Assembly: GCA_903926385.1 (NCBI GenBank)
Contig: CAIYIS010000081.1
Location: forward strand, 62,001 to 126,000
DNA from: an uncultured Bacteroidota bacterium
Lineage (GTDB): Bacteria; Bacteroidota; Bacteroidia; 2-12-FULL-35-15
Length of the DNA: 64,000 bases
Reading direction: 5' to 3'
Shown here: positions 11,709 through 47,329 of the stretch, one piece after another
How the letters are laid out: every line of letters begins with the position of its first letter
How positions within the stretch are numbered: position 1 is the stretch's first letter
Notes under the pieces: generated by a model
Seen by the model: only the letters and a program-made list of their open reading frames with translations
Told to the model about the DNA's origin: nothing
The model's database searches: none
Program-made: the position numbers and the translations under genes

Positions 11709-11851
11709 GGCGCAAAAGTAATAAAATGTGAATTGGAAATGCAATCTTGCTTACTACCAAAAAAACGTAAACCAACCAACCAAATAAATGAATAGTTAAA
11801 AACTCGGGCAATGGTTTTTGACAAAAAAAGTAGTTAAACAGCAAAAAATGC

Positions 11852-12103
11852 AAATGGTTTATTGCAAAACCTAAATGGTTTCAGTTGCGGACCAAATGGT
11901 TTTTAGTAAAACCTAAATGGTTTTGATGCGTTCCTAAATAGTTTCGGTTGCAAACCAAATAGGATTTCGAAAAAACTAAATGGTTTCTGATAGAAACCAA
12001 ATGGTTTCGGTTGAGGACCAAATAGGATTTTGTAAAACCTAAATGGTTTTGATGCGTTCCTAAATAGTTTTGGTTGCAAACCAAATAGGATTTCGAAAAA
12101 ACC
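11852..12103. repeat. Tandem array A: 12 units of exactly 21 bp
   Basis: Units begin AAATGG or AAATAG at 11852, 11873, 11894, 11915, 11936, 11957, 11978, 11999, 12020, 12041, 12062 and 12083, all exactly 21 bp apart. Many units contain GGTTT and AAACC as an inverted pair, for example GGTTTC/GAAACC in unit 7 and GGTTTT/AAAACC in unit 3. Units from 11873 on are duplicated at 11999 on, forming a 126-bp (six-unit) higher-order repeat; units 11915 and 12041 are identical. The minus strand stays open and would encode heptapeptide repeats such as NHLVxxx, which I regard as a consequence of the period. Confidence 0.95.
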
Positions 12104-12264
12104 ATTTACCGCTAAGCCGAATGCAAATAGAATTGTTGTTAAATTACAGGAAGTTACATAAATTATTAATTAAAATATCAAAAATATGCCAAAAAAAGGC
12201 AATTCATATAAGTCCAAATCTTGCTTTAGCAGATATTGTATACGAAGCACTAACCAGGCATAAA

Positions 12265-12294
12265 AAAACTCCAAACATTTCTGTTTGGAGTTTT
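12265..12294 (-). terminator. Intrinsic terminator of the rhodanese gene
   Basis: AAAACTCCAAAC and GTTTGGAGTTTT form a perfect 12-bp stem with a 6-nt loop. On the minus strand a T-run follows. It lies about 50 nt beyond the rhodanese stop codon. Confidence 0.85.
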
Positions 12295-12345
12295 ATAACA
12301 TTTCTCTCCCCATATCTTACAGAGAAGCGATAAATAAAAAGGCAT

Positions 12346-35701: not shown

Positions 35702-35770
35702 AGTTTCAGGTTTCAGGTTGGTGTTTAGTATGAATTTTGTTGATGGTGGCAAGACATTACCTGTGAACGA

Positions 35771-35952
35771 CTGTCAGCAACCCGCTGACGGCTGTCGGCA
35801 AACCGCTGATGACTGTCGGCAACCCGCTGACGGCTGTCGGCAACTTGCTGACGACTGTCGGCAACCTGCTGATGACTGTCGGCAACCTGCTGACGACTGT
35901 CGGCAACTTTCGGATGACTGTCGGCAACCCGCTGACGACTGTCAGCAACTTG
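35771..35952. repeat. Tandem array B: 9 units of exactly 21 bp
   Basis: Units start with CTGTCRGCAA at 35771, 35792, 35813, 35834, 35855, 35876, 35897, 35918 and 35939, the last one partial. The consensus is CTGTCGGCAACCYGCTGAYG plus one base. Between neighbouring units GCTGAC and GTCGGC/GTCAGC form a 6-bp inverted repeat with a 4-nt centre; the last is perfect. It is GC-richer than its surroundings. Both strands are open and would encode heptapeptide repeats (DDCRQPA on plus), probably a consequence of the 21-bp period. Confidence 0.95.
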
Positions 35953-36117
35953 TAAACCATCGTTCCTGACCTATGAACTTTAAACCGAATGCCTTCGAAA
36001 CGAAGCCGTAACAGAGCAATTGCTGCTGCTGATTGGGTACAGGCGATTCATTTGAACAGATTTAAGAATGGTGATACTTTAGAGATTGCTTCGCTTCGCT
36101 CGCAACGACAAACTGAA

Positions 36118-36138
36118 ACTTTAAACTTTGAACTTTAA
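36118..36138. repeat. Heptad repeat near the atp terminator
   Basis: ACTTTAA, ACTTTGA and ACTTTAA are consecutive heptamers, with a degenerate ACCTTCC following. Confidence 0.65.
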
Positions 36139-36156
36139 ACCTTCCAACTTTGCACC

Positions 36157-37104: not shown

Positions 37105-37171
37105 GATTTGAGTAGTGAGTATTGAGAAGTGAGAAACGGTTTCTCAATACTCAATACTCAAATCTCAATAC
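37105..37171. repeat. Inverted heptamer array in atpA-atpG spacer
   Basis: On the plus strand four heptamers (GATTTGA, GTAGTGA, GTATTGA, GAAGTGA) are followed by the palindromic centre GAAACGGTTTC and four complementary heptamers (TCAATAC, TCAATAC, TCAAATC, TCAATAC). It fills the spacer and ends exactly at the atpA stop codon. In the transcript it would fold into a long hairpin of about 30 bp with some mismatches. Confidence 0.9.
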
Positions 37172-38749
37172 TTATTTATATCCTTTCGATAAATCCTTCG
37201 CTACTGTCTCCAACACGTTAGTGATTTCGTCAGTAAGTTTTCCTGCTTTTAAATCGTTCAACACATTTTTGTGTTTGGATTCTAGGAAAGCTAAAAACTC
37301 TGCTTCAAATTCTCTTACTTTGATTACCGGAACATCTCTTAAAAGTCCTTTTGTTCCACAATAAAGAATAGCAGTTTGATGCTCTACCGTCATTGGAGAA
37401 AACTGACCTTGTTTCAAAATTTCCACGTTACGAGCTCCTTTATCAAGAACTGCTTTGGTAGCAGCATCCAAATCGGAACCAAATTTAGAGAACGCCTCCA
37501 ACTCGCGGTATTGTGCCTGGTCAAGTTTAAGAGTACCAGCCACTTTTTTCATTGATTTAATCTGAGCATTACCACCCACACGCGATACCGATATACCCAC
37601 GTTGATAGCAGGACGAACACCTGCATTAAACAAGTTTAACTCCAAAAATATCTGTCCGTCTGTAATCGAAATAACGTTTGTAGGTATGTAAGCTGATACG
37701 TCTCCTGCTTGTGTTTCGATAATTGGTAAAGCTGTTAACGAACCGCCACCTTTTACAATTCCTTTTATAGAATCAGGTAAATCGTTCATGTTTTTAGCAA
37801 TGGCATCATTCGAGTTGATTTTAGCGGCACGCTCCAGTAATCTGCTGTGTAAGTAAAATACGTCACCAGGATAAGCCTCACGTCCCGGAGGTCTACGTAA
37901 TAAAAGAGATACTTCACGATATGCCACAGCTTGTTTCGATAAATCATCATAAACAATTAATGCCGGACGACCGCTGTCGCGGAAAAACTCGCCAATAGCA
38001 GCCCCTGCAAAAGGAGCATAAAACTGCATCGGTGCCGGGTCGGAAGCCGTTGCCGAAACAATAACTGAATAAGCCATCGCTCCTGTTTCTTCCAACACAC
38101 GTTGAATATTAGCTACTGTAGAACCTTTTTGTCCGATTGCTACATATATACAAAACACAGGTTGTCCTGCTTCATAAAATTCTTTTTGATTTATGATGGT
38201 ATCAATAGCCACAGCTGTTTTACCAGTTTGACGGTCACCGATGATCAACTCACGTTGTCCGCGACCAATAGGAATCATGGCATCTACCGCTTTCAAACCG
38301 GTTTGTAACGGTTCGTTTACCGGCTGACGATAAATAACTCCGGGAGCTTTACGCTCCAATGGCATTTCGTATAATGTTCCGGTGATAGGTCCTTTTCCGT
38401 CAATAGGAAGTCCCATGGTATCAACCACACGGCCCAACATACCTTCGCCAACCATAATGGAAGCAATTTTTCCTGTACGTTTTACTACATCGCCTTCTTT
38501 AATATTGTTAGAAGAACCAAGGGTTACAGCACCTACGTTGTCTTCTTCAAGATTGAGTACGATACCTTTTAAACCGCTTTCGAATTCAATCAACTCACCT
38601 GATTGTACTTTAGAAAGACCATAGATACGAGCGATACCATCGCCCACTTCTAATACGGTTCCTACTTCTTCCAATTCTTGCTCCGACTTAAAGCCAGATA
38701 ATTGTTGTCTTAAAATTGCAGATACTTCTGCTGGTTTTACTTCTGCCAT
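37172..38749 (-). CDS. atpA: ATP synthase alpha subunit
   Basis: The alpha subunit forms the non-catalytic nucleotide sites of F1. From the ATG at 38749 ([13 protein letters not shown]) it has 525 residues. The P-loop is GDRQTGKTA (near residue 170), and [25 protein letters not shown]-type and [23 protein letters not shown]-type segments are present, the latter containing the alpha/beta signature. It lies between atpH and atpG. Confidence 0.97.
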
Positions 38750-39448: not shown

Positions 39449-39513
39449 GTTGTTAGTTGTTAGTTGTTAGTTGTTGGTGCTGGACTAACAACTAACAACT
39501 AATAACCATCAAC
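39449..39513. repeat. Inverted heptamer array in atpF-atpH spacer
   Basis: On the plus strand three GTTGTTA and one GTTGTTG are followed by a 9-nt centre (GTGCTGGAC) and four complementary heptamers (TAACAAC twice, TAATAAC, CATCAAC). It reaches the first base of the atpF stop codon. Layout is the same as in the atpA-atpG spacer but the sequence is unrelated. Confidence 0.9.
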
Positions 39514-40007
39514 TAATTTAAGTTAACGTCTTTTAATAAAGTATTCACTAAAGCTTTTTGTTTTTCGTCCGAAGCGAGTTCAGCTTTCAAAACTTTTTCA
39601 GCAATTTCTAAAGATAAAACACCTACCTGATTTTTCAATTCAGTAATAGCTGCCATTTTTTCGTTTTGAATATTTTCGCGAGCCGATTTAAGCATACGCT
39701 CACCTTCTTTAGCAGCTATACCTTTTGCCTCAGCAATCATTTTCTCTCTTATTTCGCGAGCATCTTTAAGTAATTGGTCGCGTTCGTGACGAGCATCTGC
39801 CAATATTTTTTCGTTACCAGCTTGTAAAGCTTTCATTTCTTCTTTTGCACGTTCAGCAGAATCTAATGCTTCCTGAATGGAAGTTTCTCTGTCGTTTAAC
39901 ATTTTCAGGATTGGTTTCCAGGCGAATTTACCCAGAATGTACAATATAATCCCGAAGGAAATACACATCCAAAATATAAGACCAAATGCGGGTTTAACTA
40001 ATTCCAT
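39513..40007 (-). CDS. atpF: ATP synthase b subunit
   Basis: The b subunit is the membrane-anchored peripheral stalk. The 164-residue product has one N-terminal transmembrane helix (PAFGLIFWMCISFGIILYILG) and a long charged helix (about 30-150, with ERAKEEMKALQAGNEKIL). It follows atpE by 104 nt. Confidence 0.95.
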   Translation of the reverse strand: MELVKPAFGLIFWMCISFGIILYILGKFAWKPILKMLNDRETSIQEALDSAERAKEEMKALQAGNEKILADARHERDQLLKDAREIREKMIAEAKGIAAKEGERMLKSARENIQNEKMAAITELKNQVGVLSLEIAEKVLKAELASDEKQKALVNTLLKDVNLN

Positions 40008-40111
40008 TATTATTAAAAATTATAAATTATAGATTATGAAATATAAATGTTTTTGTTTTAAAAAATCTGTACTGCAACCAACCGTTGCAGTACAGAAAAT
40101 TTGTTTGCGGA

Positions 40112-46284: not shown

Positions 46285-46659
46285 TCACTTCCCCCCCTTC
46301 AAAATATCCTTCAGAATTTCCACTTCGAGTTTTAGTTTTTCTATTTCTTTATCCTTTTCGGCCAATTTTTGAACGGCCTGTTCATTGCCGTTAGCAAGGG
46401 TAAAGTTGGTTTTCTCGTCAAGAGCCTGGGCTATTTCGTGAAAAAAATTATACCCAATGGCTTCGCTTATTTCCCATAACAAATAGGTTTGCATAGAAGG
46501 TCGCCTTAGTAATGGGTTAACAGCTCCATTTGCTCTGCCTATTTTACGGGCAATTGCAGACTTTTGCAGTTTTCTTTCATTTATTACCTTTTGCAATAAC
46601 TCACCAATATTCACTGTCATCATATCTGTTTTTTTCTTTCCTCTATTTAAATAACTCAT
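46285..46659 (-). CDS. Helix-turn-helix protein with C-terminal coiled coil
   Basis: The 124-residue protein has an XRE-like helix-turn-helix (about 17-60: GELLQKVINERKLQKSAIARKIG, then AVNPLLRRPSM) followed by SEAIGYNFFHEIAQ and a C-terminal coiled coil (about 95-122, EKDKEIEKLKLEVEILKDIL). It is probably a dimeric DNA-binding protein. The Met at residue 13 or 14 is an alternative start. Array C lies 36 nt upstream of its start codon, so the array would be in its promoter or leader. Confidence 0.75.
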   Translation of the reverse strand: MSYLNRGKKKTDMMTVNIGELLQKVINERKLQKSAIARKIGRANGAVNPLLRRPSMQTYLLWEISEAIGYNFFHEIAQALDEKTNFTLANGNEQAVQKLAEKDKEIEKLKLEVEILKDILKGGK

Positions 46660-46694
46660 TTTATCTATTATTAATATTTTAAAATATGCCGGAT

Positions 46695-46812
46695 AGGTTT
46701 TAAACCTTGCGCTCTAGGTTTTAAACCTCGCGGTCTAGGTTTTAAACCTCATGCTCTAGGTTTTAAACCTCGCGGTCTAGGTTTTAAATCTCAAAGTATA
46801 AGTTTAAAACCT
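46695..46812. repeat. Tandem array C: 6 units of exactly 21 bp
   Basis: The core AGGTTTTAAACCT, palindromic around one central T, begins at 46695, 46716, 46737, 46758, 46779 and 46800 (last copies degenerate), always 21 bp apart. The 8 nt between cores vary: TGCGCTCT, CGCGGTCT, CATGCTCT, CGCGGTCT. It lies between the HTH gene and the terminator of the next gene upstream. Confidence 0.95.
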
Positions 46813-46885: not shown

Positions 46886-47329
46886 TTACTTAAAAAACTG
46901 TTTGTATTCGGCCGACTTGGTATCGTAAAGCGCTCCACCACCTGTATCGGCTTTGTAATCGGTGTATTTTTTGTCGAGCAAACCGTTTTGATAATTATCG
47001 TAATCGTGCATACGTTTGGTTTCGGTACAAGCCTTAGAAATGGCATCTAACCGCATAGCTGTGTTTTGAAGAGCCGAACGGTCGAAATAATCTTTCGAAA
47101 ACTCCGCCCAGTCTACATCCGGACTCATTAGCGATGGCTGATTATTGCTATAATCATTCACCTTGTTTACAAATAATTTGTTGGTTTCGTCAATACTTCC
47201 GTAACGACTGTTTTCCTCGTCCGTCAGGTTTTGAAGTTTGGCCGAAATCAAAGCTTCCAACTCGTCTATTTTGGTATTAATAGCCGTGAGGTCGGATGCC
47301 GAAAAATGTTTCTCAATAATGTTCTGCAT
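46886..47329 (-). CDS. Hypothetical helical protein
   Basis: I do not recognise this 147-residue protein. It has no signal peptide or membrane segment, is acidic and mostly helical, with a coiled-coil-like first third (SDLTAINTKIDELEALISAKLQNL). Codon use is like its neighbours. A terminator directly follows. It might be a structural or regulatory protein; no evidence supports either. Confidence 0.6.
   Translation of the reverse strand: MQNIIEKHFSASDLTAINTKIDELEALISAKLQNLTDEENSRYGSIDETNKLFVNKVNDYSNNQPSLMSPDVDWAEFSKDYFDRSALQNTAMRLDAISKACTETKRMHDYDNYQNGLLDKKYTDYKADTGGGALYDTKSAEYKQFFK

Follow-up and report, generated by a model that had tools for sequence, protein, structure and literature searches.

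The window, the whole stretch of 64,000 nucleotides analysed here from an uncultured Bacteroidota bacterium, carries on its forward strand an array of 12 consecutive units, each exactly 21 bp and of the form AAAT[AG]G..., at 11852-12103 (array A), an array already noted in a first, sequence-only reading of this DNA. Local alignment with a second contig of the same genome, C2, shows that array A belongs to a larger module. A leader (11735-11851, +) and a 5'-UTR-like segment between the array and a gene start (12104-12185, +) are both common to a paralogous locus on C2, where an array of 16 units has homologous flanks on both sides and ends about 80 bp upstream of the start of a 213-aa gene, the C2 member of what we call family 1. 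This paralogue is intact, while the window retains only the start codon and first codons of the gene (12186-12257, +; identified by C2 alignment and tblastn), about 22 codons in all, with a tblastn match at 12190-12255 of 64% over 22 residues (E 0.007). A terminator-like hairpin with a T run, read directly from the sequence, lies 3' of the remnant (12262-12296, +). As part of the operator reading developed below, we propose, with even weight for and against, that array A represents the cis-acting region ahead of a small gene that has since been disrupted. Another gene remnant was seen in genome G000 (L006:1501-1584, equal to G000:C36:77447-77530), a family-1 C-terminal fragment in a locus with no 21-bp array. 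In genome G011, the different arrays and genes of L009 and L016 are preceded by leaders that are almost the same over about 130 bp and end in a terminator-like hairpin.

Array A contains a duplication of several units. Five units at 11873-11977 are duplicated at a 126-bp offset at 11999-12103, with 97 of 105 bp identical, and the units at 11915 and 12041 are indeed identical; a sixth duplicated unit had been claimed, but the unit at 11978 is not repeated at this offset (6 of 21 positions identical). With contiguous 21-bp units, variants that recur in multi-unit duplications and no unique spacers, this lacks the repeat-spacer layout of a CRISPR array. The sequence-only reading had also seen a covariation-like pattern in the inverted pairing of the units and proposed selection on pairing or on a dyad binding site. 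The change of the sixth pair between C-G and T-A is there, but without a covariation signal. At least five contiguous Watson-Crick pairs form in 3 of the 12 array A units and in 9 of 28 units when the paralogue is included; dealing the 3' halves anew among the 28 units gives as many paired units (mean 8.8, p=0.59), so the pattern is not supported. A covariation test on the 23 distinct units was null in one register, where 152 of 500 shuffles reach the percentage paired, and weakly above shuffles in the other (18 of 500, both for percentage paired and for covariation score). With no robust covariation in array A, no strand bias in folding and A.C mismatches about as common as G.T, selection on pairing finds no support either, and in both array A and its paralogue the inverted pair has largely been lost as units diverged, an outcome that the earlier reading had itself named as speaking against it. 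The dyad binding site fares better: it gains support from homologous arrays, through dyad tests and the core of orthologous arrays described below, but not from array A.

Array A is one of many tandem arrays with a near-constant 21-bp period and a sequence that differs by locus. In a 404-kb sample of its own genome (four contigs), the best period is 21 bp in 21 of 33 merged arrays, which extrapolates from these contigs to about 220 period-21 arrays per genome; the same sample, shuffled, contains no TRF array of at least 55 bp. Many arrays of the sample lie without a gene of the three families described below alongside. A GC-rich third array of the window (35767-35949, no strand assigned; 21 bp, 8.7 copies), which adjoins ATP synthase genes, has none either. 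Gene loss, as at array A, is one route to such arrays. Other repeats were noticed along the way. Intergenic DNA also contains repeats such as AAACTTT and CTCAATA, whose period is 7 bp, of which 21 is a multiple; they occur in the window at 36116-36151, 37143-37172, 39449-39516 and 40012-40048 and also at L031:5829-6085. L036:11777-12615 is an 839-bp compound array with 21-, 41/42-, 62- and 103-bp periods inside a 322-codon antisense open frame.

We surveyed the genes that follow the arrays, counting an array when its TRF score was at least 50, its period 20-23 bp or a multiple and its length at least about 50 bp, within 700 bp of the gene. Family-1 proteins have a helical N-terminus and an Fn3-like C-terminus: the 213-aa protein has no Pfam match, several of its relatives have an fn3 match in the C-terminal half, and the family profile matches Fn3 domains among solved structures at about positions 105-210 only. 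Family 2 came to light because one member gene follows an array in the own-genome sample; its profile has no match among solved structures. No recognised DNA-binding domain was found in either of these Fn3-like families, an AlphaFold model built from three sequences was poor (mean pLDDT 44.9), and PADLOC gave no defence-gene match for six proteins. Relatives of family 1 came from 7 of 36 genomes of the genus, from 17 of 395 genomes of the class (in 8 of 196 genera) and from the phylum. At phylum level most matches are ordinary fn3 domains within long proteins, and the set was restricted to full-length matches of about 200-230 aa. Fragments, contig-edge matches and split or non-family frames (L006, L010, L020, L045, L049, L053, L055-L057, L066, L070, L071, L076, L079, L081), duplicates (L038-L044, L046-L048, L050, L051, L085) and L120 were left out, and L060, with only 71 bp upstream, is outside the 42 loci counted; for family 2, a fragment (L135) and matches without a locus were left out.

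An array lies upstream of the gene in 36 of 42 family-1 loci and downstream in 1 of 39; the corresponding counts for family 2 are 27/29 and 1/29. In these two small-protein families, almost all members examined have an array close upstream. Control ORFs of the own-genome sample have an array in 11 of 211 cases and ordinary fn3 genes of the genome in none of three (two of them with less than 500 bp upstream). Pooled with the within-genus counts of the third family below, the totals are 77/86 upstream vs 2/85 downstream, for which p-values overstate independence because the loci are related to one another. The median distance from array to start codon is 155 bp, and the Bacteroidota promoter motif shows no more than mild enrichment in forward orientation. 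Viral, phage or plasmid carriage was not found for the queries tried.

The third family is represented in the window by a second 21-bp array (46677-46812, -), with the dyad AGGTTTTAAACCT in successive units. Directly downstream of it is a 124-aa gene (46285-46659, -) whose product has an HTH-like N-terminus and a coiled-coil C-terminus (HTH/coil). The HTH-like assignment comes from weak profile matches, to a PHROG transcriptional regulator (4.8e-4) and to Pfam HTH_37 at just 0.09; an AlphaFold model from one sequence was poor (mean pLDDT 54.5), and a fold search with it gave no match. On the other side of the array is an uncharacterised 147-aa gene (46886-47329, -), which L152 and L153 have at 63-65% identity. 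Two other species, G014 and G026, preserve the succession of 147-aa gene, array and HTH/coil gene, and no other neighbours matched there over the short flanks compared. Within the genus, HTH/coil genes have an array upstream in 14 of 15 cases and downstream in 0 of 17 (L161, with stops inside, was left out, and L156 and L168, with less than 500 bp upstream, are outside the 15). In a class-wide sample outside the genus the count is 5/25, one of the five having a doubtful period; this sample excludes L206 and L210, which have a stop inside, L184 and L192, which the genus count already includes, and matches without a locus. None of nine ordinary HTH_3 genes of the own genome has an array, and among the three families an HTH gene adjoins the array in this one only.

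Comparison of units between loci shows where sequence is kept. Across three species, HTH/coil arrays agree at 0.87-0.98 over the 11 bp GGTTTWAAACC and at 0.21-0.41 over the remaining 10 bp of the unit (background 99th percentile 0.77). Less strictly, at 0.69-0.80, L005, L014, L016 and L018 have TACAAYTGTAT in common. In most of the remaining pairs no common unit could be recognised, and units are locus-specific across the gene-linked arrays. For family 1, unit similarity and protein identity gave no Mantel signal (p=0.098), with identity values that are rough since free end gaps produced a few false identities (e.g. 1.0). The half-site GGTTT/AAACC is common to the paralogue of array A and the HTH/coil arrays, in a different half-site geometry.

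A column-permutation test found 24 of 56 arrays more palindromic than expected at p<0.05 (Fisher combined 2e-17), the other 32 being not significant; earlier, overlapping sets had given dyads in 15/29 and 16/34. These dyads could be sites on DNA or hairpins in RNA. In the latter case the array would be part of a transcribed leader, its repeats forming hairpins or an RNA antitoxin-like element in the style of type III toxin-antitoxin loci, and its place between leader and gene, at the median distance given above, would suit such a role, as would the strong fold-back on both strands (sense-strand z below -2 in 47/56 arrays). However, folding has no sense bias (mean z -5.13 for sense and -5.45 for antisense over 56 arrays, equal), and mismatches inside dyads show no excess of G.T over A.C (169 and 188, p=0.34), so nothing here points to RNA. 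In 18 of 34 arrays the best dyad has a centre of 0-2 bp, which leaves no room for a hairpin loop; four arrays of uncertain period or insufficient length were excluded from this count. In type III loci such as ToxIN a tandem array likewise directly precedes a single small gene; they differ from the present arrays, which have no RNA strand bias, a period locked to the DNA helix and no PADLOC match, and neither Pfam nor PADLOC found a ToxN-type endoribonuclease among the proteins scanned. Together with the missing covariation in array A, this makes an RNA leader very improbable in our estimate, and the arrays look like rows of binding sites, not RNA hairpins.

The arrays are non-coding. Repetitive peptides, with 21 bp as seven codons, might seem indicated by the many arrays that have an open frame, such as the antisense strand of the paralogous array, but 40 of 49 arrays are open in some frame where 36.6 are expected, 22-bp arrays occur within the same gene families, and 3-periodic variability is found in 0 of 49 arrays (combined p 0.9997). 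On the counts over these 49 arrays we rejected coding heptad repeats, and we give peptide coding next to no probability.

The period is more constant than the sequence. Among 71 gene-linked arrays the best period is 21 bp in 65, 22 in five and 23 in one, and 21 bp is exactly two helical turns of DNA. The 22-bp arrays track protein subfamily, not genome: L159, L163 (both G000) and L160 (G034) repeat at 22 bp in genomes whose other arrays, L151 of G000 among them, repeat at 21 bp, and in G185 the 22-bp arrays L063 and L073 stand against the 21-bp L080. This is the strongest hint that a gene-tied protein sets the spacing. It also bears on whether the arrays are unselected minisatellites, intergenic DNA multiplied by slippage and unequal exchange, whose 21-bp length would come from the mutational mechanism itself. 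Multi-unit duplication and homogenisation, fast turnover of unit sequence and the many arrays without a family gene alongside are what such expansion would leave. Different periods in one genome that follow the protein subfamily are not, nor are confinement to the upstream side of certain genes, dyad symmetry and a core kept between species beside a free spacer, and we regard unselected expansion as improbable.

The main rival to regulation as the function of the arrays is mobility. Here the array would be a structural part of a mobile gene cassette in which leader, array and gene move together, the palindromic array, sometimes with flanking inverted repeats, serving mobility or site recognition in the manner of a MITE. 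The two paralogous copies with common leader and array in one genome, the two G011 loci with nearly identical leaders before different arrays, and the absence of common neighbours across species beyond the module itself (short flanks, synteny poorly tested) all agree with it. In 13 of 56 loci, against an expectation of 2.8, the two sides of the array contain inverted repeats above the 95% null; in the other 43 they do not, the sequences of the repeats differ by locus with no common terminal sequence, and no transposase was found in the modules examined. Neither the subfamily-tied period of 21 or 22 bp nor the upstream-only position is expected from mobility alone. We consider mobility a likely history of the module, given its paralogous copies and changing neighbours, and rather doubtful as the function of the array.

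The nearest described system that we found, BrickBuilt, is of this MITE-like kind. BrickBuilt is a minisatellite/MITE of Porphyromonas gingivalis with one 23-nt family at 19 sites in one species, next to diverse genes (PMC4596501). It resembles the present arrays as an intergenic tandem array in the same phylum, with a unit of about two helical turns, leader and tail segments and a varying unit number, and its inverted ends may have a parallel in the inverted flanks seen above the null in 13 of 56 loci here (PMC4596501). The present arrays differ in their unit, which measures 21 or 22 bp and has its own sequence at every locus, and in being tied to three gene families in several genera. With 21 bp in 65 of 71 arrays and locus-specific units in place of a single 23-nt sequence family, we rejected identity with the BrickBuilt MITE.

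Two regulatory arrangements are also comparable. In plasmid iterons, a single protein specifically recognises direct repeats, about 17-22 bp long and helically phased, that precede a gene. Repeat length and phasing of this kind are found here, but the arrays are many per chromosome, have locus-specific dyads and lack a Rep gene (no Rep family match among neighbouring genes against Pfam). In homotypic operator clusters of Cro/C1-type regulators, helically phased dyads precede an HTH gene. Repeated dyads (24/56 arrays) and a conserved site with a free spacer link our arrays to them, the latter seen in HTH/coil orthologues, partly in L005, L014, L016 and L018, and absent in most other pairs. Our arrays differ in having many more sites (5-20 in each), a period locked at 21 or 22 bp, and the same layout in front of genes whose products are not HTH proteins.

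Judged from sequence comparison, we put about even confidence in the arrays being helically phased operator arrays that control the adjacent gene. Against this count the 5 of 25 HTH/coil genes with an array outside the genus, the 32 of 56 arrays with no significant dyad, the lack of a Mantel signal in family 1, the many arrays of the sample that adjoin no family gene and the weak profile matches behind the HTH assignment. In this operator reading, each array would be a row of short candidate sites that recur every 21 bp or, in a few protein subfamilies, every 22 bp; many of these sites are dyads about 11 bp long. Spacing by two turns would place bound proteins on one face of the DNA, where they could bind cooperatively, and the array would control the gene that follows it. 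In the third family, the HTH/coiled-coil regulator may act on its own array in autoregulation, and its gene product fits as the obvious candidate binder. In families 1 and 2, the arrays would control genes for small helical/Fn3-like proteins; neither family has a recognised DNA-binding domain that would mark its product as the binder, and this is the weak point of the model. Each locus would have its own site sequence, with units gained, lost and homogenised by multi-unit duplication.

A bolder version, which we offer as speculation and think unlikely on present grounds, is a cassette-like system spread over several genera. Each small gene would have a private, length-locked array read only by its own product or a co-evolving partner, and that product would dictate both the dyad and the spacing of 21 or 22 bp, such that one genome could house many cassettes that do not interfere with each other. 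On this view the helical/Fn3-like proteins would represent a novel type of array binder that assembles along one DNA face. In open-access full text we found no description of these arrays. Arrays that are fixed in length and position and free in sequence are unusual, and small-protein families elsewhere in the phylum, in other genera and other families, are marked by this layout as well. Such a feature offers a way into gene families that have no assigned function.
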